From Hahella chejuensis KCTC 2396 (GTDB lineage Bacteria; Pseudomonadota; Gammaproteobacteria; Pseudomonadales; Oleiphilaceae): a DNA stretch of 64,000 nucleotides. The translations under genes and the position numbers were made by a program. The stretch is from NCBI RefSeq assembly GCF_000012985.1, contig NC_007645.1, forward strand, positions 6,288,001 through 6,352,000, given 5' to 3'. Below the pieces are notes generated by a model that was not told the origin of the DNA, made no database searches, and saw only the letters and a program-made list of their open reading frames with translations. Below, one piece after another: positions 11,865 to 35,970 of this stretch (position 1 is its first letter; each line of letters opens with the position of its first letter).

Positions 11865-11866
11865 TC

Positions 11867-14883: not shown

Positions 14884-15729
14884 TTACTGCCAGGCCGACA
14901 GATTACTGCCGGTCAATTCGGCGACGAATTTCTTCTCGCCGGAGTAGTAGCTGCTGAGCACTTCCCGGCTGTCCGGGTCGATTTTCGGCAGCGGTTTGGA
15001 GCTCACATTCAAACGCCTCAGCAGTTCAGGCGCGCCAGTGCGCTTAATGACTTCCGTTAAACGGGTGTAGCCGGATTTGGCCAGCATCCGATAGGTGCGC
15101 ACCATGATGTTTTCCAGAAACAGAAAACGATAGGAACGCGCCTGATTGCGACGCTGCTCCACGCCTTCGGGCAGGAAGTCCACATCCTGACAGCCGAGAA
15201 ATTCGTAGACTTCGCGAAAGCCTCTGGCGTAATCCTTGTTGAAGTCCTCCAGCACGATAATTTTGATCTGTTCTTTGGGAAAGCTCGCAAAGAAAGGCTC
15301 CAGATACTGGGTGTAACAACCGAACTTCAGGTGCTCTTCATTGCGAATAAACTCCGCAAAAGAAGTGCTGCCGGCGATATCGCCTTTGCGGATGGCGTGC
15401 AGGTAATCGGAAAACGTGCGCTGCACCGGATCGCGCACAATAGCGATGATCCTGGCCTCCGGAAAGTGGCGGCGTATGCGCTCCGCCGCACCCGGCCGAT
15501 ACATGTACGTTACCGAGAACTCCCCCTTCAACAGACGATCGTCGCAGCCTTTGAACTGCGACTCATACCAGGCGAATTCATGCTGATCATACAGATCGCT
15601 GAAGTAGTTAATTTCTTTTGGGTTGCCGTCGAATATTTCCGGGTGTTGCACCAGATTTTCGAAAAACCAGGTGGACCCGCATTTCCCTGAACCGATGCCG
15701 ATAAAGTCGACGTTGAATGGTTTAGCCAT
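14884..15729 (-). CDS. PAPS-dependent sulfotransferase
   Basis: A 281-residue sulfotransferase-fold protein. The 5'-phosphosulfate-binding loop is GSGKCGSTW (13-21). The 3'-phosphate-binding segment is IVRDPVQRTFSDYL (97-110), with Arg99 and Ser107 in the expected places. It should transfer sulfate from PAPS to a hydroxyl or amino group of a sugar or lipid. The APS kinase gene at the head of the same operon can supply PAPS. It is the last gene before a strong terminator and its ATG overlaps the stop of the upstream acyltransferase by eight bases. The acceptor is unknown; a glycan is favoured by the neighbours. Confidence 0.9.
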   Translation of the reverse strand: MAKPFNVDFIGIGSGKCGSTWFFENLVQHPEIFDGNPKEINYFSDLYDQHEFAWYESQFKGCDDRLLKGEFSVTYMYRPGAAERIRRHFPEARIIAIVRDPVQRTFSDYLHAIRKGDIAGSTSFAEFIRNEEHLKFGCYTQYLEPFFASFPKEQIKIIVLEDFNKDYARGFREVYEFLGCQDVDFLPEGVEQRRNQARSYRFLFLENIMVRTYRMLAKSGYTRLTEVIKRTGAPELLRRLNVSSKPLPKIDPDSREVLSSYYSGEKKFVAELTGSNLSAWQ

Positions 15730-16303
15730 GTTGCGCCATCCTCTCCTTGGGCTCTTCCACTTTTTCCTCTGTCTTCATGGGAACGATACGCGCGGGATTG
15801 CCGATGGCGATCGAGTTGGCGGGCACGTCCGTGATCACCAGACTGTTGGCGCGCACCACCACGTTATCGCCGATGGTGACGTCACCCAGCACCTTGCATC
15901 CGGGCTCCAGGGTGACATTGTCGCCAATGATCGCCAGACGCGGCTTGCCGCGAATATTGCCGACCGTGACGCCTTCATACACGGTGAAGTTATCGCCGAT
16001 CTCCTCCGCCAGTACAAAAATGCCGGAGAAGTTGCACACCACCATGCCCTTGCCGATCCTCGCATAGCTCTGGATGCTGACGCCGGTGAACATTTGCACC
16101 AGATAAAACAAAACGAAGTACGCCGCTTTTAACAGCAACGACAAAGGTTTGAATTTGACGTCGCCGGCCTGTCTCCCGAAGCGATACACCATCGCCGCGA
16201 GCGTCCCTCTGTGCGGCAATGCGCGCAGACAATTGGCGGTGGAGGCGTCGCCGTAGAGCAGCTCCGCCTTGCGCCTCACATCCTGTTTAATGTTCGTTAT
16301 CAT
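15722..16303 (-). CDS. Hexapeptide-repeat acyltransferase (serine acetyltransferase/WcaB type), copy 1
   Basis: A 193-residue left-handed beta-helix protein. An N-terminal helical part carries a hydrophobic stretch (about 58-74), then come hexapeptide turns from IGKGMVVCNFSGIF to IGNPARIVP, the usual end of the helix. The usual His of serine acetyltransferases in the VIHNFS position is replaced by Cys (VVCNFS), unlike the two paralogues in this locus. The C-terminal tail is highly charged. Expected to acylate a sugar hydroxyl from acetyl-CoA or an acyl-ACP donor; the nearby ACP makes the latter worth considering. Confidence 0.82.
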   Translation of the reverse strand: MITNIKQDVRRKAELLYGDASTANCLRALPHRGTLAAMVYRFGRQAGDVKFKPLSLLLKAAYFVLFYLVQMFTGVSIQSYARIGKGMVVCNFSGIFVLAEEIGDNFTVYEGVTVGNIRGKPRLAIIGDNVTLEPGCKVLGDVTIGDNVVVRANSLVITDVPANSIAIGNPARIVPMKTEEKVEEPKERMAQHG

Positions 16304-16312
16304 GTTCCGTCT

Positions 16313-16912
16313 TCAGTAATTGACCACCTTCTTGCCTTCCCGCTTCTCCGCCATCCAGTTGGTTTCCCGGGAGATAATGCGGGCGGGGTTCCCCATCACC
16401 GTGCAATTGTCCGGCACGTCGGAGATCACCACCGAATTGGCGCCGACCACGACGTTATCGCCGATCTTCACACTGCCCAACACCTTGGCGCCAGCGCCGA
16501 GGAAGACATTGTCGCCAAGCTTCGGCGGCTCCGGCTGTTCACGCAGGTGACCGGTGGTTACGCCCTGGAACACGATGCAGTTGCCGCCTATTTCGCCTTC
16601 GCTGATGAAGATGTTGGAAAAGTTGTGGATGACGAATCCCGGACCGATTTTGGCTTTGGAGGGAATGTAGATGCCGAAACCCAGCACCACCAATACCTTG
16701 CCCAGGGCGTAGGGAATGTAAAGAGGAATACGCAGCAGAGCGGGCTTGATGGTGCGCGCCCAGCTCCCATAACGATAGACGATGACGGCGATGGTGCCCG
16801 GCTCCAGAAATACCCGTACGTTACGGGTGAACCAGCTTTTCTGGCTGAGAAACCATTGCTGCTTGAATTTGACGTCCGCCTTGATCAGGCTGATAAGTCC
16901 CATCTTTTGCAT
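16313..16912 (-). CDS. Hexapeptide-repeat acyltransferase (serine acetyltransferase/WcaB type), copy 2
   Basis: A 199-residue protein of the same architecture as its downstream neighbour: N-terminal helices, a hydrophobic segment (about 60-80), and hexapeptide turns including IGPGFVIHNFSNIFI and IGDNVVVGANSVV, ending MGNPARIISR. The His of VIHNFS is at the position that acts as a base in related acetyltransferases. It starts ten bases upstream of copy 1's coding end region and 22 bases after the ACP gene, so it belongs to the same transcript. Acyl donor and acceptor unknown. Confidence 0.84.
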   Translation of the reverse strand: MQKMGLISLIKADVKFKQQWFLSQKSWFTRNVRVFLEPGTIAVIVYRYGSWARTIKPALLRIPLYIPYALGKVLVVLGFGIYIPSKAKIGPGFVIHNFSNIFISEGEIGGNCIVFQGVTTGHLREQPEPPKLGDNVFLGAGAKVLGSVKIGDNVVVGANSVVISDVPDNCTVMGNPARIISRETNWMAEKREGKKVVNY

Positions 16913-16934
16913 AAGTCCTTTTGCTGTCCGTTGC

Positions 16935-17186: not shown

Positions 17187-17260
17187 ATTATTTTCTCCAT
17201 GTTCACGTCCATTTAAGCCTTTGTTTCCGTATCCGTTCCTACGGACTGCGCAGCGAAGCG

Positions 17261-17842
17261 TCAGCCCTTTTTGATATACAGGCGGTAGGGGAATTTCTCA
17301 GTTACCTGGATCACCGGGTTGTGACCCACGTAGATATAATAGGTGCGGCAGATCAGTTCGCCGCAATAGTAGCTGGAGCTGCCCGGCACCACTTCCTGTT
17401 TGATTTCGCGGTAGATATCGGCGACCTGGCGGTAAGTTTCCAGACCCATTTCCCGCAGCAGCTCGCCAATACCGATTTTACCCTGCAGTAATTGTTCACT
17501 GATTTGCTCAGGCAGATCCTGCGTCTTGATGATGGAGGTGGCGTACGCGTAGATGTCGCCGCTTTCCACGCCGCGAATGCAGACATTGCGTCGCAGTACG
17601 GTATCGCCTTTCCGGCAGGACATCTCCTCCACGTCCTCTTCCAACGCCTGTTCGTGCTGGCCGAGTTGCTCGACCATCAACGGCTCCCAGTAATAAGCTT
17701 CCAGGGTCTTGGTCACAGTGCCGTCAGTGACCAGCAGCGTCCGCAAAATCGGCGGCATCGCGGCGATGTCGAGACTCTCATCGCGCTTGTTGGTAATGAT
17801 GCCGCCAGCAATATATCCCTTTGCTTTAAAACAATCTAACAT
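17261..17842 (-). CDS. Chorismate pyruvate-lyase-like protein (DUF98/Rv2949c type)
   Basis: A 193-residue protein whose core matches the chorismate-lyase fold family as I know it. The first half has PILRTLLVTDGTVTKTLEAY. The second half has RRNVCIRG, an ATSIIKT strand and GKIGIGELLREMGL, in the order seen for UbiC-type and DUF98 lyases (substrate Arg, then the closing Leu-Gly-Leu loop with Glu). Such enzymes turn chorismate into 4-hydroxybenzoate and pyruvate. Start ATG 17842 has AAGGTGG upstream; a GTG at 17851 is possible. Next to an AMP-ligase and an ACP, it probably supplies an aromatic acid for activation rather than for ubiquinone. The family call was not confirmed by a search. Confidence 0.72.
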   Translation of the reverse strand: MLDCFKAKGYIAGGIITNKRDESLDIAAMPPILRTLLVTDGTVTKTLEAYYWEPLMVEQLGQHEQALEEDVEEMSCRKGDTVLRRNVCIRGVESGDIYAYATSIIKTQDLPEQISEQLLQGKIGIGELLREMGLETYRQVADIYREIKQEVVPGSSSYYCGELICRTYYIYVGHNPVIQVTEKFPYRLYIKKG

Positions 17843-17871
17843 GCTCTCCACCTTGTACTTAACTTTGCGGA

Positions 17872-19311
17872 TTAAAGATACTTTCTGAGCACCTTGCCCA
17901 GAGGACTCTTTGGAATTTCGTCCACGAATTCGATAATTTTCGGTGTTTTATAAGAAGCCAAATGCTCCGCGCAGCTGGCCGCCACCATCTCCCTGGTGAC
18001 GCCGGCGCCGGCCTTCACCGCCACCTTGACCATTTCGCCGTACATGCCGTCGGGTTTGCCCAAAGCCACCACTTCCAGCACACCGGGAATACGCCGAATC
18101 ACAGCCTCCACATCCGCCGGGTCGACTTTATGACCGGCGACATTGATCATCAGCTTTTTGCGCCCGACGATGATCAGATTGCCTGCCTCATCCAGGCGCC
18201 CTAAATCTCCCGTATGGTAACCGTCTTTGCGGAAGGTTTCCGCACTTAATTCCGGCAACCCCCGGTACTCATGGGTCATGGCTGGAGAGTCGATCACTAC
18301 CTCCCCCTCCTGACCTGCCGCTACCGGCTCTCCCTCATCGTCCAGCAGACGAATAACGGAGCCAGACACCGGCTTGCCGACGGAGCGAAAGTTAGCGGCC
18401 GAAACATGCGCATTCACCGCCGCGGCGCCGGTTTCCGTAGAGCCATATAACTGCCCCAGAGGTATGCCGAAGGCCTCGCGGAAGCCGGTGAATATGTCTT
18501 CCTCCAGCGGCGCTCCAGCCGTATACGCCAAGCGTAATCGGCTCAGATCCGGCGCCTGTTTGAATGGCGTCATCGCCATCATTTTGCACATAAACGGCAC
18601 GGAAGGCAGCAAGGTCGCCTGATGTTCCGACACCAGCCGCATCATTTTTCGCGCATTGAACTCGCCATGATGAATCAACAGCGTTCCGCCGTTCATCAAC
18701 GCCGCCAGAAAACAGTTGCCAAAGCCATGAGCGTGAAACAGCGGTACGCTGCAGGCGATAACATCTTCATGGGTGATGCTCAGCGTGGCGGCGGAGCCCT
18801 CCACTTCCGCCATCACCTGCGCCTGCGTGCGCGCCACCTGTTTGGGCGAGCCGGTGGAGCCGGATGAAAACATGATGACGGCGTCCGCCGTTCCTGGATA
18901 ACGGCTTTCCGGGGCGTCCTCATCCGACACAGGCAAAGCGTCATCCAGCCCAATCACACAACGCGCCATCTCAGCGGGAAGCTTCGCTTCCGCTTCAGGA
19001 ACGACAAAGGCGAAGCGCACTCGGGCGTTGTCGAGGTACAACGCGGTTTCTTCCTGTGTGTAGGCCACGTTTAACGGCAACAGTACGCCGCCGTTGGCCC
19101 AGACCGCCAGCGAGATCGCTACGAAGTATATGGAGTTGGGAACCAGCGCCGCCACCGCTTCGCCGGGACCGACGCCAGCCGCCCGCAATACGCGGGCGTA
19201 TCCGACAGCGGCGCTGATCATTTCGCGATAACTGTAGGAAGTCTCGCGCCAAACAACGGCTTCCTTGTCAGGAAACCGTTGCGCCTGCTCAACAAAACGT
19301 GCAAATAACAT
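17872..19311 (-). CDS. Acyl/aryl-AMP ligase (ANL superfamily)
   Basis: A 479-residue class I adenylate-forming enzyme. The core motifs are present: FSSGSTGSPK (148-157), LYGSTETG (288-295), YHTGDLG (365-371), GRKKLMINVAGHKV (383-396) and the catalytic Lys473 in PLGKVLRKYL. No carrier domain is fused. It starts the sub-cluster ligase, chorismate lyase, ACP. The likely reaction is ATP-dependent activation of a carboxylic acid and its loading on the stand-alone ACP (or CoA). The chorismate lyase suggests 4-hydroxybenzoate as substrate, by analogy with the ligase half of mycobacterial FadD22; a fatty acid cannot be excluded. Confidence 0.88.
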   Translation of the reverse strand: MLFARFVEQAQRFPDKEAVVWRETSYSYREMISAAVGYARVLRAAGVGPGEAVAALVPNSIYFVAISLAVWANGGVLLPLNVAYTQEETALYLDNARVRFAFVVPEAEAKLPAEMARCVIGLDDALPVSDEDAPESRYPGTADAVIMFSSGSTGSPKQVARTQAQVMAEVEGSAATLSITHEDVIACSVPLFHAHGFGNCFLAALMNGGTLLIHHGEFNARKMMRLVSEHQATLLPSVPFMCKMMAMTPFKQAPDLSRLRLAYTAGAPLEEDIFTGFREAFGIPLGQLYGSTETGAAAVNAHVSAANFRSVGKPVSGSVIRLLDDEGEPVAAGQEGEVVIDSPAMTHEYRGLPELSAETFRKDGYHTGDLGRLDEAGNLIIVGRKKLMINVAGHKVDPADVEAVIRRIPGVLEVVALGKPDGMYGEMVKVAVKAGAGVTREMVAASCAEHLASYKTPKIIEFVDEIPKSPLGKVLRKYL

Positions 19312-19328
19312 ATGATTACGACTTCACT

Positions 19329-20138
19329 CTATGCTTTGGTTTGCAGCTCTTTATAGCCGGTGGCCTTCAATTTGCCGTAGAGATTGAACAGCTCTACAAA
19401 CGCCTTGAAGATGACTAACGGATTGGCGCCGGTGGCGGCCCCTGACAACCTGGGATAGTGACTGACGGGCACTTGCTTGATCGTGCAGTGCATCATGCCC
19501 GCCTGAGCCAGAATCTCCGTGTTGATCATGGCGCCTTCCGCCTCAATCCGAATGCTCTGAATAAAATCACGCCGGAAAATCTTGAAGGCGCAATCAATAT
19601 CCCGCACTCGAATTCCAAACAGGTAGCGCACCAGAACTCCCCAACAGTAAGCGTTCAGCTTGCGATGCCAGGGGTCGGCGCGCTGCGCCCGGTAGCCCAC
19701 CACGATGTCGTAATCGTTGATGTGCCGCAGCAGCAGGTCGACTTCCTCCAGGTCGAACTGACCATCTGAATCGGAGAAGAAAATAAAATCTCCCCGCCCC
19801 GACTTCAGGCCGGTCCTGACCGCGCCGCCATACCCTTTGTTCTGCACATGGTGGATGGGACGCACTTCCTCATGCTCCTGACGCAGGCGTTCGAGGATAT
19901 CCCGTGTGCCATCGGAGCTGCCGTCGTTGACGACGATGATCTCTACGGTTTCAAAATGCTTCTTAAACGCTCCTATCGCCTTCAGGACCGTCATTTCTAT
20001 ATTCGTTTCTTCGTTATAGGCGGGGAATACAACAGATACGCTAGATAATTTCTTATTTTGCGCGGAAGCCGATGCTTCCGTCTGGGCATCCTCTGTGGGC
20101 GCCTTATCCACCTTACGTAATATGATGTCCGCTTCCAT
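19329..20138 (-). CDS. GT2 glycosyltransferase, polyprenyl-phosphate sugar synthase type
   Basis: A 269-residue GT-A enzyme with VVFPAYNEE, the nucleotide-binding NDGSSDGT (71-78) and the metal-binding DSDGQ (123-127). It has the DPM1/ArnC-like middle part (VRDIDCAFKIFRRD) but no C-terminal membrane pair. The first 30 residues are an extra charged, Ala/Gln-rich tail. Enzymes of this group move a sugar from a nucleotide donor to undecaprenyl phosphate, for use by GT-C enzymes on the periplasmic side. A GT-C enzyme is encoded in the rightward arm (32247-33878), so the two probably work in sequence. Confidence 0.86.
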   Translation of the reverse strand: MEADIILRKVDKAPTEDAQTEASASAQNKKLSSVSVVFPAYNEETNIEMTVLKAIGAFKKHFETVEIIVVNDGSSDGTRDILERLRQEHEEVRPIHHVQNKGYGGAVRTGLKSGRGDFIFFSDSDGQFDLEEVDLLLRHINDYDIVVGYRAQRADPWHRKLNAYCWGVLVRYLFGIRVRDIDCAFKIFRRDFIQSIRIEAEGAMINTEILAQAGMMHCTIKQVPVSHYPRLSGAATGANPLVIFKAFVELFNLYGKLKATGYKELQTKA

Positions 20139-20198
20139 TGAACTGTCCTTTGTTTCGCTGGGTTATTCCATTGCGGCGTTGACTTGACCACCCGTAAA

Positions 20199-21263
20199 TC
20201 ACGCAGCCAGAAATTTGTCCTTGGTGAACACCGTTTGCGGCGTTCGCAGCTCACGGGAACTGCGCCAGGACTGCACGCCAGATAGTTCAAAGTTGAAAGA
20301 CATCACTTCCACGCCGGCTTTCACCAGCGCTTCCATCACCCGGCGTTTACGGGTGGACTCACAATAGAACATCATGAAGCCGCCGCCTCCGGCGCCACTG
20401 ACTTTACCGCCCAGGGCGCCGGCTTTCACCGCGTCTTCATAAATCTGGTCGAGTTGACCGTTGGATATGGTCGCCGCCATTTTCTTCTTCTCTTGCCATG
20501 CATAATCCAGCAGTTTGCCGAATTCGTCCGGGCGACCGGTCAGCAGCGCTTTTTTCATTTCCACCGCATGCGCCTTGAGGTTGTGCATGGCGTTCAGGCT
20601 CGCCTGATCGTTGCGCTCCACGTTCTTGACCTGGGACTCAATGATGCGCGAGGACAGCCGGTTCTTTCTGGTGTACGCCAGAATCAGGTTGTATTCGAGT
20701 TCATGAATAACCCAGGGGTCGATGCGCAGCGAGTTGACGATGACGTGGTCTTTCTGGAACTCCATGAAGTTGAAGCCGCCGAAAGCGCTGGCGTACTGGT
20801 CCTGCATGCCCCCCAGAATCCCCAGATCGCCACGTTCGATTTCGCAGGCGCGACGGGCGATGTCGTAAGGGCTTAACGCCAGGTTCTTCAATTCTCTGAA
20901 AGCGCCGATCAACGACACCACCATGGCTGACGAAGAGCCCAGACCGGACCCTGGCGGGGCGTCATTGTGGGTGACGATGCGTAAACCGGCGGAACCTTCG
21001 TAAAAGCGCTTGATCACGCCTTTGGCCAGATCGCTTTCGCCATTGAACTGAAGATCCTTGTTGGCTTTGATGCGGGTAATGCTTTCGAAATCCTGCGAGT
21101 AGATTTCTATCTGCGGAACTTCCCGCAATTCCAGATGGGTGTATGCGTATTTGTTTATGGTGACGTTCAGAACATTGCCGCCATATATATCGGAGTAGCT
21201 GGCGATATCGGTGCCGCCTCCGGCGAAGCTGATCCTTAGCGGAGCTTTTGATCGGTAAAACAT
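20199..21263 (-). CDS. hddA: D-glycero-alpha-D-manno-heptose 7-phosphate kinase (HddA-type GHMP kinase)
   Basis: A 354-residue GHMP kinase. The N-terminus APLRISFAGGGTD is characteristic of the HddA/fucokinase-like branch. The phosphate loop is PPGSGLGSSSA (103-113) and motif 3 is the GGKVSGAGGGGFMMFY segment. It should phosphorylate D,D-heptose 7-phosphate at the anomeric position on the way to GDP-heptose. gmhA and hddC, the steps before and after, are in the rightward arm of the locus, which supports the assignment. GmhB, the phosphatase, is not in the window. Confidence 0.9.
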   Translation of the reverse strand: MFYRSKAPLRISFAGGGTDIASYSDIYGGNVLNVTINKYAYTHLELREVPQIEIYSQDFESITRIKANKDLQFNGESDLAKGVIKRFYEGSAGLRIVTHNDAPPGSGLGSSSAMVVSLIGAFRELKNLALSPYDIARRACEIERGDLGILGGMQDQYASAFGGFNFMEFQKDHVIVNSLRIDPWVIHELEYNLILAYTRKNRLSSRIIESQVKNVERNDQASLNAMHNLKAHAVEMKKALLTGRPDEFGKLLDYAWQEKKKMAATISNGQLDQIYEDAVKAGALGGKVSGAGGGGFMMFYCESTRKRRVMEALVKAGVEVMSFNFELSGVQSWRSSRELRTPQTVFTKDKFLAA

Positions 21264-21340
21264 AAAGTCGTCCTTTCCCTAGTTTTGTAACCTAATCACT
21301 TTGAATACGTCCAGTTACAACAAACTGCAGTCCTTGCGCT

Positions 21341-22003
21341 TCAGGAAGCGCGATACAGTGTTGCGTCCCTTTCAACAATAAATTGCTGTGCAATGAGATA
21401 ACCGATAACCCTCTCCACGCATTCGGACAGGGATAACGCATCGGTATTCAGAGTCAATTCCGGATTGACTGGCGGTTCATAAGGAGAATCAACGCCGGTG
21501 AACTTTTCTATGCGGCCCGCACGGGCTTTCTTGTACAAACCTTTGGGGTCGCGTTGTTCACATACGTTGAGAGGCGTCGACACATGGACCTCGACAAACT
21601 CGCCGGGCTCCAGCATTTGACGCACTATTTTTCTATCTTCGCGGAAGGGGGAGATGAAAGCGCTCAGAACGATCATGCCGCTGTCGACAAACAACTTGGC
21701 GACTTCGCCTATTCGGCGGATGTTCTCGACCCGGGATTCGTCGGAGAAACCCAGGTCTTTGTTCAGCCCATAACGGACGTTGTCACCGTCCAACAGATAG
21801 GTGTGGCGCCGCCACTCAAACAACTGCGCCTCCACCGCATTGGCGATCGTGGATTTGCCTGCTCCGCTAAGGCCGGTGAACCACAGTAGGCAAGGTTTCT
21901 GCGTCTTGATGGACGCACGCTGGGATTTACTGATTTTATGCTGATGCCAGACAATGTCGGCGCAGACGTCATTCCCAGACTTTATTGTATATTCCTTAGC
22001 CAC
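21341..22003 (-). CDS. cysC: Adenylyl-sulfate (APS) kinase CysC
   Basis: A 220-residue APS kinase: P-loop GLSGAGKS (44-51), then [16 protein letters not shown] for APS binding, and [13 protein letters not shown]. It makes PAPS, the sulfate donor used by sulfotransferases. I chose GTG 22003 because AGGAG lies seven bases upstream; the longer ATG 22048 has a poorly spaced site. ATP sulfurylase (cysD/cysN) is not adjacent, so APS must come from elsewhere. As first gene of the leftward operon that ends in a sulfotransferase, it is probably a dedicated copy for this pathway. Confidence 0.93.
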
Positions 22004-22010
22004 CGTCGTA

Positions 22011-22015
22011 CTCCT
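22011..22015 (-). promoter_or_regulatory. Ribosome-binding site deciding the cysC start
   Basis: AGGAG on the minus strand, seven bases before GTG 22003. It favours the 220-residue cysC over the 235-residue form. Confidence 0.75.
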
Positions 22016-22812
22016 GAAGCCATGTGCGAAACGCAAATCCGCGTTCATTTCCTTATCCGTGGGAGCAATCTCAGCAGAGTAAAGCAGCAGCCCAATGTCC
22101 TCAGCGAGGCAAAAAGCATGCCCGAGCTACGGCAAAAACAGGGAAAAAACGCAGATGACGCTTATATGACAGTCCAGGGAAAACGCGGGGCCGATGAGCG
22201 CCGCTTACGACATGGACAAATAAAGAGCTGTTTTATCTTTCACTTAAGTCGGGTTTAACGATGGCCTACGCGGGAAGAAGTCGAGATAGGAGATCACGAC
22301 TTTGAGCCTGCGCCTCCGTAAAAAACACTGAGAAAAAATGATTTTTCGCACAGGTCCCAGGATGAAAACGGCCCGATTTTCACACCAAAATTTGATTCAT
22401 TTAGGGGCGCTGACAAAGAAAAAGGGGCAGCCGCTTATACGCCAAGTGTAAAGAAAATAATAAGATGAATGTCGGTTCAGTTTACGCTTTGGCCATTTTC
22501 TCTGCTCACTTATTAATCTCTGTAAACCTTCTCACTACTTTTAACGACCAACAAAACCGGAAGTGTTGAATTTTTTTACATATTGTTTTTGCACCAACTT
22601 TGACCATTCAGTCAGATTATCCTCAACATCCCGCGCCACTAAAGGGTTTCCGGCCCATAACCTCTATACATCGGGTATTTCAGCGAGAAAAAGCTGGCGT
22701 CAAAAAGGAGAAATTGCGCTCATTTATTGTCATCTCCACGGGTTTTCATTTTACAAACCTGTCATCCTGCCCCACCTCCTTTGGCTCGAATATTGCCTTT
22801 TCGGGAGTTAAT

Positions 22813-22838
22813 AACAGGTTAAGCCTGTTTGCTTTTCA
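22813..22838 (+). terminator. Possible leader attenuator before the rightward operon
   Basis: Stem AACAGG (22813-22818) with CCTGTT (22824-22829), 5-base loop, followed by a T-rich run interrupted by GC. It sits in the leader of the GT4 operon, not after a gene. The stem is short, so the call is weak. Confidence 0.3.
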
Positions 22839-22877
22839 GCCAGGATTTACGTCACTTTCAGAAGGAATGCATACAAA

Positions 22878-24944: not shown

Positions 24945-24954
24945 CGGCGTACTT

Positions 24955-26651: not shown

Positions 26652-26658
26652 GGAATTC

Positions 26659-28026: not shown

Positions 28027-28029
28027 TCA

Positions 28030-29490
28030 ATGTCTTCGAACAAGAAGATTTTCCGCAATATCATCGCCACTTTGCTCGGCGAAGGCGTGGGCGCGCTGCT
28101 CAACATCTACGTCATCGTCTTGATCGCCCGCACTCTGGGACCGGAATCCTTCGGCGACTTCGCCTTCATTCTGGCGTTTGTCGGCCTGCTGCAACTGGTC
28201 ACCGACATGGGCGTCACCAATCTGCTGGTGCGGGAAATCGCGCAGAAGAGGGAGCAATACAAGTATTTCTTCGGCAACGTGCGCCTGCTGGCCTGGACGG
28301 TCACCCTGGTCGCCACAGCCCCCACCGCCATCGTCTGCCTGCTGATTCTGGAGGATCGCGACTTCGGCCTGAGTCTTTTCATTATGACGGTCGCCGCGCT
28401 GATCGTGTTTCATAGCGTGATTTATGGGGCGCTGTTCCGCGCCTTCGAACGCATGGAATTCAATGCCGCCATTTTCGTCATACACAAAGTGATTCTGCTG
28501 GCGCTTACGCTGTACTGGCGCGAGCACGACCCCAGCATCCTCGCGCTATGCGGTTATTATCTGCTGGCGAACATTTGTCAGTTCCTGCTGTTTTACGCTT
28601 GCAGCCTGACGGTTTTCAAGCGCATTCCCTGGCGCTTCGATCCCGGCCTGTGGAAATACGTGCTGTTCGAATCGGCTCCCATTGGTTTGTCCATGATGTG
28701 TCGTCGCGCCACGCTGCATGTGGACACCCTTATCCTGAAAGCGATGGCCGCGCCCCTCGCACTGGGGTTGTTCAACGCCGCCTATCGGGTGATACAGATC
28801 ATCGAAATGCTGCCTTTCACGCTGTCCATCCCAATCTATCCCAAACTGGCCCGCCTGGCCCTTGGCGATAAAGCGGACTTCAGTCGCTTTCTCAATCAGG
28901 TGCTGAAGTTCTACGCCATCCTGTCGCTGCCCATCGTGGCCTATGTATTCGTCTTCGCAGAGGACATCATTGGACTGATGTATACGCCGGAGTTCGCCTC
29001 TTCCGCCAATATCCTGCAAGCGTTGGCGGTAGCGATCTTCTTTATCTTTCCGTCCTCCATCATGATTTACGTTTACTCCGCCATGGGACGGCAACGCCTG
29101 TTCACCCTGATCTCCGTCGCCACCCTGGCTACTAACGCCATCCTGGATATTCTGCTGATTCCACACCTGCACGCCTTTGGCGCTGCAGTAGGCACGGTGA
29201 CTGCAGAAGCCTTGTTCATAGCCGGATCGCTCTGGTTCCTGTATCGCCAGTCCGTGCCGGTGCAATGGGTGCGCATGTCTTACAAGCCGCTGTTGGCGTC
29301 ATTGTTGGCGGGCTATGCAGTGAACGCGGTTTTCGCCTCTCCGGGACTGTTGCAGTTTATCCTGGCGTCACTGCTGTTCGCCGTCGCCTATCTGGCGCTG
29401 ATCCTGGTCAGCAAAACGCTGAACCAGCGCGAGTTGGCGTTCCTGACGGCGTTGATCAAGCGTCGCCCCGCCGGCAAAGGTGCGCAGTAA
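28030..29490 (+). CDS. Wzx-like polysaccharide flippase (MOP superfamily)
   Basis: A 486-residue membrane protein with about 12-14 helices. The opening part (FRNIIATLLGEGVGALLNIYVIVLIAR) and DFAFILAFVGLLQLVTDMGV are typical of Wzx/RfbX proteins. It should flip a lipid-linked oligosaccharide across the inner membrane. No Wzy polymerase, Wza or Wzc is seen nearby, so the product may be a short oligosaccharide or glycolipid, or be processed by the GT-C protein further on. Confidence 0.87.
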   Translation: MSSNKKIFRNIIATLLGEGVGALLNIYVIVLIARTLGPESFGDFAFILAFVGLLQLVTDMGVTNLLVREIAQKREQYKYFFGNVRLLAWTVTLVATAPTAIVCLLILEDRDFGLSLFIMTVAALIVFHSVIYGALFRAFERMEFNAAIFVIHKVILLALTLYWREHDPSILALCGYYLLANICQFLLFYACSLTVFKRIPWRFDPGLWKYVLFESAPIGLSMMCRRATLHVDTLILKAMAAPLALGLFNAAYRVIQIIEMLPFTLSIPIYPKLARLALGDKADFSRFLNQVLKFYAILSLPIVAYVFVFAEDIIGLMYTPEFASSANILQALAVAIFFIFPSSIMIYVYSAMGRQRLFTLISVATLATNAILDILLIPHLHAFGAAVGTVTAEALFIAGSLWFLYRQSVPVQWVRMSYKPLLASLLAGYAVNAVFASPGLLQFILASLLFAVAYLALILVSKTLNQRELAFLTALIKRRPAGKGAQ

Positions 29491-29494
29491 CGTC

Positions 29495-30751
29495 ATGAAT
29501 ATGCTGGCGGGGGTTCAGGCGAGTCTGATTCTGGCGATGCTGGGCGCGTTCCTTGCTCCCTGGATCAATCTGCCCTTCGCCGGCGGCGAGTCTGGCGTGC
29601 AGTACGCTGCGTCGATGGCGCTGTCTCATCCGGATATGCTGGGCCCCGTCTTATTGCTTTTGATCGCCGCGCCTTTGCTGGCGATCAGCGTCCACTTCAA
29701 CAAACCAAATCTCGCTTTAACGAGCGCCGCCTTCGCCCTGGCGTTTCTGGCGTGCGTTCCCGGTTACCTCGTCGCTCTCGATCCCCATACGTTGCCGACC
29801 TACACCGACAACATTGAGGACTATCGCACGTTGAAGCGGTTCTTCAATTCCTTCTTCACGCCCAATAAAGGCCAGGCTATCGCACTCCCTGACACCGCCA
29901 GCTTTGACTCCTTGGGCGGTCGTCTTGAGCTGGCGTTTCTGTGTCTGGAGTGGGGCTGGTATATCTCCATTGGCGCCGCCGTCATCCTCTTCATGATGAC
30001 GCTGTCCAAGGCCCGCCTGCGCTTCTACCCCATTGCGCTGCTCATCCTGATCACGCCGTTGGCGTTGACGCTGTACCCACCCATGCAGGCGGCCAAATAC
30101 AAACAGGACGCACAATGGCGTCTGACCCAGGGCAATCCGGCGTCCGCTTTTGGCGCCATGGTCATCGCCTTCAAGCTTGACCCCCTGCTGACTTACTCCG
30201 AGCAGGCAAGCCGGCTTTTCTCGCAATTGAACGCAATGGTATTCAAACCGGAAAACCCCGCCTCCGCGCTGTACCAATCGGCGCAGCTGGAAACCGCAGG
30301 CAATCGTCAGGAAGCGCTGGACACACTGCATTCCGCCCTGCAACACCGACGCGAGGACGAGTTTTTTCCTTATGTGGCGCATCACACCAAGCGCCGTCTC
30401 GCTATTCTGACTGATCGGGTTATCAGCCGCAGCTATCGTCACGAGCAGTGGGACGAGGCCCTGCGGGCGTTGCAGGAAATGCTGCGGGTCTATCCGGAAA
30501 GCGACACCCTGCGGGCAATGGCCAGTCTCGCCTATATGCGTCAGGGCGTGCCGGAAAGTTGTCTGAGCAGCGTCTCGGCTTCGCTCGAACGGATACAAGG
30601 CTCCAGCCTGCGCGCCGACTTGCTGGCGACACAAGGGGAATGCCTGATGATGATGGGCAAAGTGGATCAGGCGCGACAGTCGTTCCAGCTTTCCATTGAC
30701 GCGGACAGCGTGCGCAATCTGCGCGCCGTGCGCGGGCTCAGCGGGTCATGA
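29495..30751 (+). CDS. Membrane protein with C-terminal TPR-like repeats, unrecognised
   Basis: A protein of 418 residues from ATG 29495; a GTG at 29480 would add five and overlap the flippase stop. The N-terminal half has about five hydrophobic helices (residues 3-20, 45-64, 68-90, 148-170, 178-196). The C-terminal half is helical with TPR-like spacing (HEQWDEALRALQEMLRVYPE, then a GKVDQARQSFQLSIDAD block). I do not recognise a family. It lies between the flippase and a jelly-roll membrane protein and overlaps the latter's start (ATGA), so it may scaffold glycan assembly. That role is inference from position only. Confidence 0.6.
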   Translation: MNMLAGVQASLILAMLGAFLAPWINLPFAGGESGVQYAASMALSHPDMLGPVLLLLIAAPLLAISVHFNKPNLALTSAAFALAFLACVPGYLVALDPHTLPTYTDNIEDYRTLKRFFNSFFTPNKGQAIALPDTASFDSLGGRLELAFLCLEWGWYISIGAAVILFMMTLSKARLRFYPIALLILITPLALTLYPPMQAAKYKQDAQWRLTQGNPASAFGAMVIAFKLDPLLTYSEQASRLFSQLNAMVFKPENPASALYQSAQLETAGNRQEALDTLHSALQHRREDEFFPYVAHHTKRRLAILTDRVISRSYRHEQWDEALRALQEMLRVYPESDTLRAMASLAYMRQGVPESCLSSVSASLERIQGSSLRADLLATQGECLMMMGKVDQARQSFQLSIDADSVRNLRAVRGLSGS

Positions 30752-32250
30752 CCATGTTGTGGCGAAGCGCGCGACAGGGACTGCAGGCGAGTCGCAAAAT
30801 CTTTCCGGCGTTGCTGGCTTTCTCCTTGCTGCTGGGGCTGATGACCACTTACGCACTGGAGCTGAAGAACCAGCAAGGCGTACGTTTGAACTGGGACGGA
30901 GCCCGGTGGATCACCGCGCCAGACGCCCGCGCCGTCAGTTATTTCCGCAAAGTATTCATTGTGCGCGCCGCGCCTTATAAAGCTTTCTTGAAGCTCGCGG
31001 GAACGGAGAATTACAAACTCTATATCAACGGCGTGGAGATTGCGGTGAAATCCGCCCCCACGTCTGAGCCAATCTGGCTCGGCGCGGTGGAGTCGTACTT
31101 ACGCCCAGGTAGAAATGTCATCGCCGTTCGCGTGGAAAAATCCTCCCTCGGCGGCGCGCCGGCAATGATATTGTCTCTGCGGGTTCAAGACAGCCAGGGG
31201 CAGGAACAGCTTCTGGTCAGCGACAACGCCTGGAAAGCGTCCTTCACCCCCGCCAGTGGCGGCGCCGATAACCGCATATGGTATCAGTATGGTTTTTACG
31301 ACGCTGACTGGCGGACGCCGCATTTAGCCAATGGGTTAGAACCGCCCTCCATCAGCGGCAACGTGGATTACGGCTATTTCCTGTGGAGCCGCACCAGCGC
31401 ATTGGAGCCAGTCTGGCGCAGCGGCGGCGACAGAGCATCGGAAGCCCGTTTTGTGCTGACCTTGCCTTTCTCCCGCGCCGCGCTGCAAAACGCCTGGTTG
31501 ATGACGCAATGTAACGGAACCTTCAAGGTAAACGTCAATCAACGCCGTTTGGGCGACTACGCCAGCGACTATCCGCAGATCAAAGTCATTAATCTGTTCC
31601 AGCCTTTGGGCGCCGGTCCGGCGAATAAAATTGAGGTATTCGCCGATTGCGATCCGGCGCATGGCATTGGATTGCAGGCCGTGGCGCAGACAGGCGAGGA
31701 TCGTTTCATCAGCTTTCCCGGCATAGACTGGCGCGTCAGTCCCGTCAGCGCCACGGACGCGCCTGCGCATTACGAGCGCCCCGCCTATACGCCGCATATC
31801 CGTCAGGTGTCGACGGAGTCAGTGGAAAACGCGCCAATCCGTTTCGAAGACCCCAGCCTGGAGGTCATGCGGCAAATCAGTTACCCCGAATTGATTTTGC
31901 GCGCATTGAAGTGGTGTGCAATCTGGTTATTGCTCAACGTTCTTACCAGCGCAGGACTGTTGTTAGCGCTGGGAGGACTGCCCCGTCTTGTCGCTGCGAT
32001 AAACTTGCTGCTGACCTCTCTCGCCTGCTTCGGCGCTTTGTTGTGCGCGCTTGCGCTGGATGCGCGTCTGCTCACCACAACGATATTCAATCTGAGCGTC
32101 GTCACCGGACTGTTTGGCGCAGCCTTGATGAGCCAGGCTGTATCAGCCTTGCAGTTACGCTCTGCACACTTTGAACCCGGACCTGTTTCCAAAACACAGC
32201 AGATCAGCGGCGCGGGCGTCCACCGGCAGGTCCTGGAGGAAAGCCTATGA
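30748..32250 (+). CDS. Membrane-anchored jelly-roll (carbohydrate-binding-like) protein, unrecognised
   Basis: A 500-residue protein. One helix (about 20-37) leads to a periplasmic part resembling the N-terminal jelly roll of bacterial alpha-L-rhamnosidases and GH2 sugar-binding domains (WITAPDARAVSYFRKVF, then YKLYINGVEI, then LRPGRNVIAVRVEKS and LLVSDNAWKAS). A second beta domain follows (about 225-340), then three helices (about 390-410, 418-440, 448-470). No glycosidase catalytic domain is present. It may bind nascent glycan in the periplasm. Starts and ends in ATGA overlaps with its neighbours. Confidence 0.6.
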   Translation: MTMLWRSARQGLQASRKIFPALLAFSLLLGLMTTYALELKNQQGVRLNWDGARWITAPDARAVSYFRKVFIVRAAPYKAFLKLAGTENYKLYINGVEIAVKSAPTSEPIWLGAVESYLRPGRNVIAVRVEKSSLGGAPAMILSLRVQDSQGQEQLLVSDNAWKASFTPASGGADNRIWYQYGFYDADWRTPHLANGLEPPSISGNVDYGYFLWSRTSALEPVWRSGGDRASEARFVLTLPFSRAALQNAWLMTQCNGTFKVNVNQRRLGDYASDYPQIKVINLFQPLGAGPANKIEVFADCDPAHGIGLQAVAQTGEDRFISFPGIDWRVSPVSATDAPAHYERPAYTPHIRQVSTESVENAPIRFEDPSLEVMRQISYPELILRALKWCAIWLLLNVLTSAGLLLALGGLPRLVAAINLLLTSLACFGALLCALALDARLLTTTIFNLSVVTGLFGAALMSQAVSALQLRSAHFEPGPVSKTQQISGAGVHRQVLEESL

Positions 32251-33878
32251 GCTACCAAGGCGTATCGCAATGGACGAAATGGCCGCGGCTGCGCGACCAG
32301 GTTTATTCACTTCCCGTGATCCTGCTGATTGCGACGGCGCTGATTACTCTCTCTTTCAGTCTGCGCATCGGCGGCCTGGATGCGCGCGCGCTCACTATTG
32401 ACGAAGCCACTATCGCCAGCTTCGTCGAAGGGGTGTTGGACAAGGGTTATCCCCACATTTTCGTCAGCACCATGGAAGTCCCCCTGGCCACTTATGAACT
32501 GGTGCCCTACTTTCTGGCGCTGTCAGTGAAACTGGGCGGCTTTTCCGAGTTCACCCTACGGCTGCCGGCGCTGTTATTCTCCACTGGCGTGTTGGGATTG
32601 ATATTCTGGATCAGCCTGCGTCGCTTTGGACTGGCGGCGGCGATTATCGCCGGATTGCTGTACAGTCTTTCAAGCTGGTCTATCTATTGGTCGCAGAACG
32701 CATTTCATCCGGCGCAGACGCAGTTCTTCACGCTGCTAACCGCCACAGCGGTTTATCACCTGATACAGCAGGAGCGGGTTCGGCTGCGTTTCGCATTGTT
32801 GGTTTGGGCGCTGTTCTCGGTGACCTATCTGAGCTGGGAAGGTTCTGGGTTTCTGCTTCCAGTGATGGCCGTCATCGTGCTTATCTTCAAACGGAACAAT
32901 CTGGTCTGGATCTTCCAGCGCAATCTCTGGGTGATGTATCTGCTGGTGATATTAACCCTGGTCGCTCAGGGCGTGCGTCGTGTGGTTCTGCAACAGCCGC
33001 ACCTGATGCTGGGCTCCGGCAAAGGCGATGTCAGTCTGCCGCAGCTGGGCTTTCTGAAGGACAGCTGGGAGCCGGGCTTTTACTTCATCAACTTCTTCGG
33101 CATGGAAACCCATCTCATCACCGGCGCGGTATTCCTGCTCGGCGCTTACTACGCCTGGAAGCGTCCAACGCTGCGCTTTTATTATCTGGTGTTTCTTATC
33201 ACGCTGTTGTGTCTCAGTAATTTTCTGCTGTTCTACAACGCCCACTATGTGTTCTTCATCTATCCGTTTTTCATTATCAGCGTCGGCGCCATTCTTGCGT
33301 TTTTGATTGAGGATGTAACGCGCCTCACTATCCGAGTGAAAGCCCCGGCGGCGGCGGCGATCGCCAGCTTCAATCTGGCGGCGCTCTTATTGATGGCGGT
33401 GATGTCGATGAACTCCAACCTGATCCATTTTTACAGCATCGGAAATCTGGGCCATCTGGGCTTTCGTTCTGACTATCGGGACGGTTTCGCCGGCGTGGAC
33501 TACCGCAAAGTCTCCGCCACATTGAAGCAGGGCTATCGTGAAGGCGACAAAGTCATCAGCATGGCGCCGATGCCGACCAAACTGTACGCCGGCATTACGC
33601 CGGACTATTTCCTGCAAACTATTACCGATCGCAAGATCGTCTACGACCGTAACCTGGACTCCCCCTTCTATCGGGACAAGTTTCTGGGCACGGTGGTGCT
33701 TCGCAGCGGCAGGGAGCTACAGGATGTACTGAACCAAAACAATCGGGTCTGGCTGGTGGCCTCCCCCTGGAATGCGATGACGCTGGTCATCGACGCGGAC
33801 ACCTTGCAATTCGTCCAACACAGTATGCGCGTGGTGGATGAGAGTTACGACGCCATACTCTTTTTATGGCAGAAATGA
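32247..33878 (+). CDS. GT-C glycosyltransferase (GT39/ArnT-like)
   Basis: A 543-residue polytopic protein with about 10-12 membrane helices. The first periplasmic loop after helix 1 carries the acidic pair in LTIDEATIAS, the position of the catalytic Asp-Glu in ArnT/PMT enzymes. This is followed by AFHPAQTQFFTLLTATA, as in the PMT_2 group, and a soluble C-terminal domain. It would use a polyprenyl-phosphate sugar, such as one made by the GT2 in the leftward arm, to glycosylate a periplasmic acceptor. Coupled by ATGA to the jelly-roll gene. Confidence 0.82.
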   Translation: MSYQGVSQWTKWPRLRDQVYSLPVILLIATALITLSFSLRIGGLDARALTIDEATIASFVEGVLDKGYPHIFVSTMEVPLATYELVPYFLALSVKLGGFSEFTLRLPALLFSTGVLGLIFWISLRRFGLAAAIIAGLLYSLSSWSIYWSQNAFHPAQTQFFTLLTATAVYHLIQQERVRLRFALLVWALFSVTYLSWEGSGFLLPVMAVIVLIFKRNNLVWIFQRNLWVMYLLVILTLVAQGVRRVVLQQPHLMLGSGKGDVSLPQLGFLKDSWEPGFYFINFFGMETHLITGAVFLLGAYYAWKRPTLRFYYLVFLITLLCLSNFLLFYNAHYVFFIYPFFIISVGAILAFLIEDVTRLTIRVKAPAAAAIASFNLAALLLMAVMSMNSNLIHFYSIGNLGHLGFRSDYRDGFAGVDYRKVSATLKQGYREGDKVISMAPMPTKLYAGITPDYFLQTITDRKIVYDRNLDSPFYRDKFLGTVVLRSGRELQDVLNQNNRVWLVASPWNAMTLVIDADTLQFVQHSMRVVDESYDAILFLWQK

Positions 33879-33893
33879 ACAAGGGGAAATGTA

Positions 33894-34661
33894 ATGAACA
33901 TGGAAGCTAGAGCAACGCACATTCGCTGCATCATTCTGGCCGGCGGCAAGGGCGCCCGGCTACGTTCACGGGTTGCGGACCTGCCCAAACCCATGGCGCC
34001 GGTGGATAACCGCCCATTTCTGGAGTTGCTGCTGGATCAGCTCGAACAGCAGAACATTCACGATATAGTGTTGTCCCTCGGATATAAAAGCGAGCATATC
34101 GTGCGCCACTTCGCAGAGCGCCCCCGTGAAACCCAGCGCCTGGAGTTCGTTATCGAAGACGCGCCCATGGGGACCGGCGGCGCCATCCGTATGGCGGCGG
34201 AACGACATCCTGCGCCTTACTATCTGGTGCTCAATGGAGACAGCTTTTGCCATACCGACCTGCAGGATTTTATTTCCTCTGTTTACCGCAGTGAGTTCAC
34301 CAACGGCATGCTGGCCGCGCTACAGCCTGATTGCTCCCGTTACGGCAAACTCACCGTGCACAAACACAGCGGCAAAGTGATCATGATTGAGGAGAAAAAA
34401 CCGAACGCCGGCCCTGGCCTGATCAACGCCGGCGTCTATTTCCTCAGCGCCGAGTTCTTACATAAACACTGCCTGCAACAGGGCGCGTTTTCGTTCGAAC
34501 AAACCGCCTTTCCGGCTTTGGTGGGCGGAGGACTGTACGCCTATACCAAGGCCGGTCCGTTTATCGATATCGGCATACCCGAAGACTATGACTTTTTATG
34601 CGCCCACAAGGAGCAGTTCTTTCCACAGCGGGAAGCAACCCTTTCTGCGCTTAGTGAGTGA
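33894..34661 (+). CDS. hddC: D-glycero-alpha-D-manno-heptose 1-phosphate guanylyltransferase (HddC-type)
   Basis: A 255-residue nucleotidyltransferase with LAGGKGARLRSRVADLPKP (15-33), the signature of this branch, and LNGDSF (113-118) with the metal-binding Asp116. It should join GTP and heptose 1-phosphate to GDP-D-glycero-alpha-D-manno-heptose. gmhA follows 25 bases later, and hddA is in the divergent arm. Start ATG 33894; a second ATG two codons on is also possible. Confidence 0.88.
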   Translation: MNMEARATHIRCIILAGGKGARLRSRVADLPKPMAPVDNRPFLELLLDQLEQQNIHDIVLSLGYKSEHIVRHFAERPRETQRLEFVIEDAPMGTGGAIRMAAERHPAPYYLVLNGDSFCHTDLQDFISSVYRSEFTNGMLAALQPDCSRYGKLTVHKHSGKVIMIEEKKPNAGPGLINAGVYFLSAEFLHKHCLQQGAFSFEQTAFPALVGGGLYAYTKAGPFIDIGIPEDYDFLCAHKEQFFPQREATLSALSE

Positions 34662-34686
34662 GCCAGGACAATCAGGAGGATGACCA

Positions 34687-35280
34687 ATGAACATTGACAT
34701 GGAATATGTAAAAGAACGCATCAGAGATTCGATTGCAGTCAAACAGCGCGTGCTCGCGGACCAAGCGCTGATGGAAAAAGTGCTCCGTCTGGGTCAGGTC
34801 TGCGTTGAAGTTTATAAAAGGGGCAATAAGGTTATCCTGGCGGGCAATGGCGGCAGCGCGGCGGATGCGCAGCACATCGCAGCGGAATTCGTCAGCCGCT
34901 TTGAATTTGATCGTCCCGGATTGCCCGCCCTGGCGGTGACCACGGATACGTCCATGCTCACGGCCATCGGCAATGATTATGGCTACGAGCGGGTTTTCGC
35001 GCGTCAGGTGGAGGCCAACGCCAAACCCGGCGACCTGTTTATCGGCATCACGACATCCGGTAATTCCAAAAACATACTGGTCGCTCTGGAGAGCGCCAAA
35101 GAAATGGACCTGATCACCGCCGCCTTCGCCGGTTCCGGCGGCAAGGTGCAGGAGCTGGCGGAGCACGTCATCAACGTTCCCTCCACACATACGCCAAGAA
35201 TTCAGGAATGCCACATCATGATCGGACACATTATCTGCGGTATCGTGGAAGACGCGATATTCGGCGAAGCCGCCGCCTGA
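34687..35280 (+). CDS. gmhA: Phosphoheptose isomerase GmhA
   Basis: A 197-residue SIS-domain isomerase with LAGNGGSAADAQHIAAEFV (51-69), ITTSGNSKN (121-129) and a C-terminal HIMIGHIICG helix; the His and Glu of the first motif are family zinc or catalytic residues. It turns sedoheptulose 7-phosphate into D,D-heptose 7-phosphate, the first step to GDP-heptose. AGGAGG lies eight bases before the ATG. Because LPS-core heptose needs its own gmhA, this is probably a pathway-specific second copy. Confidence 0.92.
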   Translation: MNIDMEYVKERIRDSIAVKQRVLADQALMEKVLRLGQVCVEVYKRGNKVILAGNGGSAADAQHIAAEFVSRFEFDRPGLPALAVTTDTSMLTAIGNDYGYERVFARQVEANAKPGDLFIGITTSGNSKNILVALESAKEMDLITAAFAGSGGKVQELAEHVINVPSTHTPRIQECHIMIGHIICGIVEDAIFGEAAA

Positions 35281-35313
35281 ACTGGAACTCACAAAACTGA
35301 CAAGGACACGATT

Positions 35314-35970
35314 ATGTTGGACATACCGCAACTCCTCTCCCGAGTGAAACTGTTCCGTAAAAAGGCCGCTGTGCGCTGCGCCATGTGCTCAATGGGCGGC
35401 GTCGGCTCTACCGCTCTGGCGCGCCATATCGGCTCTATCTCCGATAAAACCATCCGCGAGCACGCCTATACGCCCGCTGTATATGACGATGAAGTCGACA
35501 TCCGGCTCGGTTACATGTTCGGCAATCCTTACGACGCGGTGCTCTCACTGTTTCGCCGCAATTATCAGGACATGCACGCAAAAGCCATGAACGTGAACAG
35601 CCCCACTCCGGCGCGTTCGCTGCGCGGCATGACGCTGGAAGAGTATTTGGAAAGAGGCGTGGATGAATTCAATATCGAGCGCCAGTTTGATAACTGGGTC
35701 AGTACTTTGTCCCCCAAACACCCGACTATCCTGGTCAAATACGAGAGCCTGGGATCGACCATCGACAAGGTGCTGGAGTTCTTCCAATGCGAGGAGCCGT
35801 TCGAGCTGAAACGCAGGAACTCCTCCTGGGTGGATCAGCCTTCACGCATCATTGAAGGGCTGCAGCTGATTTACGGCGATGTCGCCGCCAAGATAGACGC
35901 CATGCCGCCATTAAAGATATTACTGCCGGAAAGCGCTCACACCCAGACTCTGAACGCTGTCACCAGCTGA
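35314..35970 (+). CDS. Divergent sulfotransferase-like protein
   Basis: A 218-residue protein I do not know by name, but with a sulfotransferase-like pattern. There is an N-terminal strand and glycine loop (MCSMGGVGSTALARH, 24-38) in place of the phosphosulfate-binding loop. A GNPYDAVLSLFRRNY segment stands where the 3'-phosphate-binding Arg/Ser usually lie. A VKYESLGSTIDKVLEFFQC helix resembles the VxYExL stretch of the family. The canonical RDP motif is not clear. It closes the rightward operon, as a sulfotransferase closes the leftward one. Confidence 0.6.
   Translation: MLDIPQLLSRVKLFRKKAAVRCAMCSMGGVGSTALARHIGSISDKTIREHAYTPAVYDDEVDIRLGYMFGNPYDAVLSLFRRNYQDMHAKAMNVNSPTPARSLRGMTLEEYLERGVDEFNIERQFDNWVSTLSPKHPTILVKYESLGSTIDKVLEFFQCEEPFELKRRNSSWVDQPSRIIEGLQLIYGDVAAKIDAMPPLKILLPESAHTQTLNAVTS

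Follow-up and report, generated by a model that had tools for sequence, protein, structure and literature searches.

Within the window analysed here, a stretch of 64,000 nucleotides from the single 7,215,267-base contig of Hahella chejuensis KCTC 2396, 21 genes lie in two divergent arms with outer ends at positions 14884 and 35970. The locus is best classed as an unusual Wzx-type surface-glycan locus, and the natural reading of its gene content is that the product would be a sulfated, heptose-containing glycan. A fuller explanation, to which we give about an even chance of being right, is that the arms form an island for such a glycan, that an aryl-acyl carrier protein (ACP) branch belongs to it, and that its chorismate lyase gene, chl, replaces the canonical ubiC. 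The parts, taken singly, are all of familiar kinds. What is unusual is their combination, the putative export pair formed by a membrane fusion protein (MFP) and an outer-membrane factor (OMF), and the probable takeover of ubiC function. None of the other neighbourhoods examined (11 around chl relatives and 20 around relatives of the heptose kinase HddA) showed the full combination, and no description of the locus was found in the literature searched, including passages of a Hahella genome-mining paper (PMC9030710); PMC5646410 contained nothing on it.

A sequence-only reading of this DNA had drawn the same two bounds, which do coincide with the outer ends of the arms, and had proposed a sulfated, heptose-containing, possibly aryl-acylated product. 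Genes for sulfation, heptose synthesis and aryl activation are all present. It is our inference that a single molecule bears heptose and sulfate together with an aromatic acyl group, and this holds above all for the aromatic ester.

Conservation of the two arms

Here G000 denotes the window's own genome, other G numbers the genomes compared with it, and L numbers fetched stretches. All 21 genes are collinear in G369, G372 and G373 at about 85-100% identity, and chl of G372 is 96% identical over all 196 residues. In the other three Hahella genomes (G370, G371 and G374), the GT-C glycosyltransferase gene, gtC, has no match, chl has none in G370 or G374 and a 29% match elsewhere in G371, and the only hddA match spans 66 residues at 35% identity in G370. 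The arms thus travel together, as the sequence-only reading had expected: each of the four Hahella genomes in which chl has a close match, counting the window's own, has 21 of 21 genes. Arms lying apart were not seen in relatives, and Hahella genomes without a close chl are also without a close hddA or gtC. That the locus is a surface-glycan island specific to the clade of H. chejuensis is part of the explanation given about an even chance above. The plus-arm gene orf500 was found in one of 369 genomes of the class, the window's own; other Hahella were outside that draw, yet G369, G372 and G373 carry it.

A heptose gene set divided between the arms

HddA, HddC and GmhA, the set for GDP-D,D-heptose, are all encoded in the locus. 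Models of these families are the best NCBIfam matches of the three proteins, with PDB matches in agreement for HddA and HddC, yet all three score below the strict equivalog cut-offs, and a second GmhA model gave 194 bits against a cut-off of 276. Below the NF049969 cut-off, too, are three HddA proteins (395-476 bits) whose genes belong to contiguous heptose triplets in other genomes.

HddA matches at an E value of 1e-20 or better were present in 33 of 369 genomes, including G000, which has a single HddA. Neighbourhoods were fetched for 20 of the 32 others, in stretches of 10.7-19.9 kb. The order hddA-gmhA-hddC is contiguous in eight of the nine neighbourhoods with the closest HddA (39-47% identity); neither gmhA nor hddC was seen in the ninth, L081, and the arrangement is mixed in the 11 more distant ones. 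In Hahella, hddA lies on the minus arm, and gmhA and hddC on the plus arm. Because the triplet is contiguous elsewhere but split here, both arms probably serve one pathway, in agreement with the sequence-only reading, which had seen a single pathway divided between them. At E 1e-4, the same 20 stretches held no match to chl, the ligase, ACP, cysC, MFP, OMF, GT-C, orf500, the TPR protein, the sulfotransferase, the YdjM-type protein or the 218-residue protein, and a few had wzx, hexapeptide, gt2 or gt4 matches.

That the arms are two unrelated neighbouring operons, divergent by chance, would sit well with the 829-bp gap between them and with promoter-like matches in that region that do not exceed those in shuffled sequence. 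We regard this as very improbable because both arms are found in four of four Hahella with a close chl, with chl, hddA and gtC absent or remote in the other three, and because the heptose set is split between the arms in a genome with one HddA.

In the favoured explanation, GmhA, HddA and HddC, drawn from both arms, would act with a GmhB-like phosphatase encoded elsewhere to give GDP-D-glycero-D-manno-heptose; the GDP linkage is predicted from matches to heptose kinases and to a nucleotidyltransferase of the 6-deoxy-mannoheptose pathway. A GmhB-like gene is present in eight of eight genomes, none over the curated cut-off (in G000, 92.7 bits against 149.6, with a further 24-bit match). The capsule heptose set of Campylobacter jejuni is similar in that gmhA, hddA and hddC are in the locus and gmhB, like the GmhB-like candidate here, lies outside the capsule cluster, according to PMC10680097. 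In contrast to that system, the Hahella triplet is split over two divergent arms, and none of the locus proteins matches an ABC exporter.

The locus gmhA is an extra copy. Strong GmhA matches (192-214 bits) number three in each of the four locus-bearing genomes versus one in G370, G371 and G374. In a comparison over 12 genomes, beyond which closer relatives may exist, the locus gmhA is 77% identical to the gmhA of L038, versus 42% and 36% to the two other copies in G000 and 54% to that of G383. The third strong gmhA, at G000:C1:1869063-1869518, has counterparts in the locus-bearing Hahella and none that strong in G370, G371 or G374.

Sulfation genes

An adenosine 5'-phosphosulfate (APS) kinase, CysC, and a sulfotransferase are encoded together in the locus, and the dedicated kinase would supply 3'-phosphoadenosine 5'-phosphosulfate (PAPS) to the sulfotransferase, whose standard-looking motifs, read by eye, we take to be PAPS motifs. 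There are two full-strength APS kinases per locus-bearing genome (n = 4) versus one in G370, G371 and G374; weaker second matches occur in G371 (24 bits) and G383 (87 bits). The closest plasmid matches of the sulfotransferase are at about 31% identity, and the one inspected in context belongs to a Sinorhizobium polysaccharide cluster. That cluster, on pSymB of S. meliloti, resembles the Hahella locus in having a similar sulfotransferase near glycosyltransferase, O-antigen ligase and export genes. Unlike the Hahella locus, it has Wzz and polysaccharide-export genes, and none of its 10 listed features is a heptose or aryl gene.

The sequence-only reading had sulfation split over both arms. Its minus-arm part, cysC and a sulfotransferase, stands; the sulfotransferase-like gene that it saw on the plus arm (35314-35970) lacks profile support. 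This candidate was rejected: it had no Pfam match at E up to 1, hhalign against the other locus sulfotransferase gave a probability of 0.6 of 100, and its two PDB matches, Gem-associated protein 8 (E 0.65) and a sulfotransferase (E 0.74), are at chance level. A structure model had a mean predicted local distance difference test (pLDDT) score of 38, too poor for a fold search.

Chorismate lyase and the loss of ubiC

Canonical UbiC, scoring 94-108 bits with the PF04345 profile, is present in all four genomes tested that lack the locus (G370, G371, G374 and G383) and exceeds the cut-off in none of the four that carry it (G000, G369, G372 and G373). In the latter, chl alone passes the profile cut-off as a chorismate lyase; G372 has an extra 14-bit match. 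Against a chorismate-lyase model, the G374 UbiC scores 92 bits, below its cut-off. Where ubiC was located in G371, G374 and G383, it lies between hpt/kefB-like and phoB-like open reading frames (ORFs; names by eye). The next ORF is ubiA-like in G374 and G383; in G371 the overlap filter lists an opposite-strand ORF there instead. In G000 and G369, the two genomes read at this place, no ubiC match at E 1 was found between kefB and ubiA, and the aligned ends are 58 bp apart. Eight genomes with chl relatives, mostly metagenome-assembled (G406-G413), had no UbiC match above the cut-off. The only significant solved relative of chl is an unnamed protein (2nwi, E 2e-10).

From these patterns, UbiC appears to have been displaced by chl. 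With canonical ubiC lost and no chorismate lyase besides chl found by profile, part of the job of this lyase is probably to feed ubiquinone synthesis, which needs the aromatic acid that such an enzyme makes. Among the Hahella examined, ubiC is lost in exactly those that bear the island, a clean case in which an accessory surface locus has probably assumed a step of ubiquinone synthesis.

The 29% chl relative of G371, which lacks the locus, lies near P450-, FAD-monooxygenase- and DAHP-synthase-like ORFs (L025:9113-14062; by eye), possibly a small aromatic-metabolite cluster.

A candidate 4-hydroxybenzoyl-ACP module

The lyase, an AMP-forming ligase and the carrier protein are adjacent in the locus, in a single compact operon where chl separates the ACP gene from that of the ligase. 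The 83-residue ACP carries an LDSI motif. Acting in succession, lyase, ligase and ACP would yield 4-hydroxybenzoyl-ACP, and one of the CysE-like acyltransferases could place the 4-hydroxybenzoyl group on the glycan, a last step that we infer. The sequence-only reading had listed an AMP-ligase, a lyase, an ACP and three hexapeptide proteins as an acylation branch; all are supported by profile, and the lyase probably has its additional part in ubiquinone synthesis.

A pattern-based scan of an 84,980-genome collection (alignment A1) gave 12 chl loci, one of them Hahella HN01; some of the 11 non-Hahella stretches are short. In L043, ligase and lyase form one 700-residue ORF (PF00501, PF13193, PF01947), and an ACP-like ORF (PF00550, 18.8 bits, below the 20.8 cut-off) lies about 1.1 kb upstream of the fusion, which supports a 4-hydroxybenzoyl-ACP module. 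In mycobacterial phenolic glycolipids, Rv2949c and FadD22 have a 4-hydroxybenzoyl starter role, according to PMC7205293. The Hahella module is similar in combining an Rv2949c-like lyase, an AMP-ligase and a carrier protein. It differs from the mycobacterial one in that the locus proteins include no ketosynthase match and the genes adjoin those for glycan synthesis and sulfation; 4-hydroxybenzoate activity of its ligase is putative.

This resemblance invites another account, in which 4-hydroxybenzoyl-ACP would start a synthase encoded elsewhere and the product, an aryl-primed secondary metabolite or a glycolipid of the phenolic-glycolipid kind, would be glycosylated, sulfated and pumped out by the MFP-OMF pair. 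The mycobacterial precedent, the efflux-type character of that pair and a ketosynthase-like ORF (by eye) near the L043 fusion speak for it. The lack of a ketosynthase match in the locus speaks against it, and the Wzx flippase and heptose set point instead to a lipid-linked glycan, and we judge it unlikely. The L043 region itself (6790-16952), from a Lentisphaerae metagenome-assembled genome, has the fused ligase-lyase, the ACP-like and ketosynthase-like ORFs and an O-methyltransferase, and looks like an aryl-primed biosynthetic cluster.

In L038, from one metagenome-assembled genome, gmhA is adjacent and divergent to chl, and the locus genes are 77% (gmhA) and 69% (chl) identical to that pair; two genes on opposite arms in Hahella thus have close relatives side by side. 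mshI is present in L045, whose chl match is the same as that of G378. Six of the 11 loci lack any further gene of the Hahella locus at E 1e-3. In L039 and L040, cysC adjoins chl, and a special cysC-chl link was considered and rejected: the locus CysC is 61-62% identical to those two versus 56-64% to other CysC proteins (outlier, 34%). A plasmid search with chl returned two records at about 25%, and the one inspected had no glycan genes nearby.

Proposed assembly and export of the glycan

In the proposed scheme, the GT4 and GT2 enzymes would act in the cytoplasm, the Wzx-like flippase, recognised by profile, would turn the glycan over, and GT-C would act outside. The adaptor and OMF would help the glycan across the envelope. 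As in Wzx-dependent exopolysaccharide loci, there are a Wzx-like flippase, GT4, GT2 and GT-C enzymes and acyltransferases; unlike them, the Hahella locus has an MFP-OMF pair. The TPR protein reaches Wzy_C only at E 0.91. A plasmid search with gtC gave no match; orf500 matched six plasmid records over 16-28% of its length, five of them annotated as glycoside hydrolase 78 or rhamnosidase, and its structure model (mean pLDDT 40) was too poor for a fold search.

Weighing the aryl branch and the export route

Several observations weigh against the explanation favoured here. On the aryl side, chl is the sole chorismate lyase by profile only, and other 4-hydroxybenzoate sources were not searched. Ten of the 11 non-Hahella chl loci (L038-L042 and L044-L048) had no ligase or ACP match in the stretch, some stretches being short. 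The ligase-lyase fusion was seen in one metagenome-assembled genome only, and none of 1,731 matching plasmid records reaches 80% coverage. The nearest solved relatives of the locus ligase are oxalate-, feruloyl- and fatty acyl-CoA ligases, which do not fix its substrate, and the best-scoring models for the hexapeptide proteins are serine acetyltransferases of the CysE/EpsC type, enzymes that use acetyl-CoA. On the export side, a search confined to the locus proteins recognised no Wzy, Wza, Wzc or initiating sugar-phosphate transferase, and the MFP-OMF pair has no adjacent pump. Finally, H. chejuensis EPS-R is reported to be built of glucose and galactose, with xylose and ribose in traces (PMC2901825, PMC5852497). 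Because EPS-R is a glucose-galactose polymer, any product of the locus may be a different polymer or a glycolipid.

The scarcity of ligase and ACP matches beside chl elsewhere also suits an account in which the glycan is sulfated and contains heptose without an aryl group, the lyase is a relocated ubiquinone enzyme, and ligase and ACP load another acid, fatty or amino, for acylation. The status of chl as sole profile-found lyase where ubiC is lost fits this account, as do the best NCBIfam matches of the ligase, which are general acyl-CoA ligases. The placement of chl between ACP and ligase and the L043 fusion with its nearby ACP-like ORF are harder to reconcile with it, and we consider it possible without being probable.

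In its most specific form, the favoured explanation has a beta-helix acyltransferase adding an aromatic ester to the sulfated heptose glycan and export running through adaptor and TolC-type factor, not Wza and Wzc. The island would have taken over ubiC function, with one lyase shared by respiration and glycan, and would not be easily lost. We think it doubtful that all of this holds. If true, ACP-borne aromatic decoration and sulfate would join heptose surface glycans in one island, and an adaptor-OMF pair would stand where Wza and Wzc are expected.

Locus layout and genomic setting

The minus arm has nine genes with internal gaps of at most 77 bp and runs outward from the APS kinase to the sulfotransferase; the plus arm has 12, from the GT4 gene to the 218-residue protein without a family, with 213 bp after the first gene and all other gaps at most 33 bp (Table 1).

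Table 1. Features of the two-arm locus, with positions in the window
Feature	Position	Strand	Evidence and remarks
Terminator-like hairpin 3' of minus arm	14826..14847	-	9-pair stem and T tract; consensus match only
PAPS-type sulfotransferase (sulf1)	14884..15729	-	PF00685 51 bits
Left-handed beta-helix (hexapeptide) O-acyl/acetyltransferase A	15722..16303	-	PF00132; CysE/EpsC-like
Hexapeptide O-acyl/acetyltransferase B	16313..16912	-	PF00132; CysE/EpsC-like
Acyl carrier protein, 83 residues	16935..17186	-	PF00550 29.8 bits; LDSI motif
Chorismate pyruvate-lyase chl (Rv2949c-like/DUF98)	17261..17851	-	PF01947 54.1 bits
AMP-forming acyl/aryl ligase	17872..19311	-	PF00501 256 bits; relative fused to chorismate lyase in L043
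GT2, polyprenyl-phosphate-sugar-synthase-like	19329..20138	-	PF00535; NCBIfam matches below cut-offs
HddA-like heptose 7-phosphate kinase (GHMP kinase)	20199..21263	-	NF049969 333 bits, below cut-off 600; PDB 3k85 E 4e-93
APS kinase CysC, extra copy	21341..22048	-	TIGR00455 269 bits
Divergent intergenic region, 829 bp	22049..22877	.	Between arms
GT4 glycosyltransferase	22878..24155	+	PF13692/PF13439
Hexapeptide O-acyl/acetyltransferase C	24369..24944	+	PF00132; CysE/EpsC-like
YdjM-type inner-membrane protein	24955..25533	+	PF04307 46.5 bits; absent from sequence-only reading
Periplasmic adaptor (MFP)	25530..26651	+	PF16576; TIGR01730 213 bits
TolC-type OMF	26659..28026	+	PF02321 82 bits
Wzx/MOP flippase	28030..29490	+	PF01943 113.6 bits
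Membrane protein with TPR repeats	29480..30751	+	TPR by profile; membrane part by eye
orf500, rhamnosidase-N-like stretch	30748..32250	+	PF08531 17.6 bits, below cut-off; membrane anchor by eye
GT-C glycosyltransferase (PMT_2), gtC	32247..33878	+	PF13231 32.9 bits, cut-off 26.1
HddC-like heptose 1-phosphate guanylyltransferase	33894..34661	+	NF049965 144 bits, below cut-off 300; PDB 5xhw E 8e-43
GmhA sedoheptulose 7-phosphate isomerase, extra copy	34687..35280	+	TIGR00441 193 bits, below cut-off 209
218-residue protein	35314..35970	+	Sulfotransferase-like by eye only; 25% relative in Leisingera polysaccharide region

Most gene families named in the sequence-only reading were borne out by profile; the exceptions are the second sulfotransferase, which fell away, and the YdjM-type gene, which had been overlooked. 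The mechanical ORF for the MFP (24981-26651) reads out of frame over the latter gene, and the MFP probably starts at the ATG at 25530. Promoter-like matches numbered 5 versus 6.2 and 4 versus 6.8 in shuffles, terminator-like matches 12 versus 9.8 and 18 versus 14.1, and pattern matches overall are not clearly above chance. Base composition gives no clear signal of foreign origin (G+C 0.56 in the locus, 0.59 in the left flank and 0.50 in the right), and PADLOC returned no anti-phage match for five flanking or family-less genes.

Judged by gene order, the island occupies the interval between ssb and mshI, into which it was probably inserted; the labels mshI and mshL are our own, from weak PilM and clear secretin matches. 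In the window, ssb is at 38780-39424, separated from the island by ddl and two small ORFs. A single 20-kb stretch without the island contains uvrA, mfs, an ssb-like ORF and mshI in G374, and likewise in G383, a member of a different genus in the family. An ssb-like ORF is near mshI in G371, with uvrA outside the fetched stretch, and different genes follow mshI in G370, unlike the arrangement in G374 and G383. A 3.7-kb contig of G378, which is also outside Hahella but in the same family, has a 42% chl relative (L026:151-705) immediately beside mshI, bordering the interval in which Hahella carries the island.

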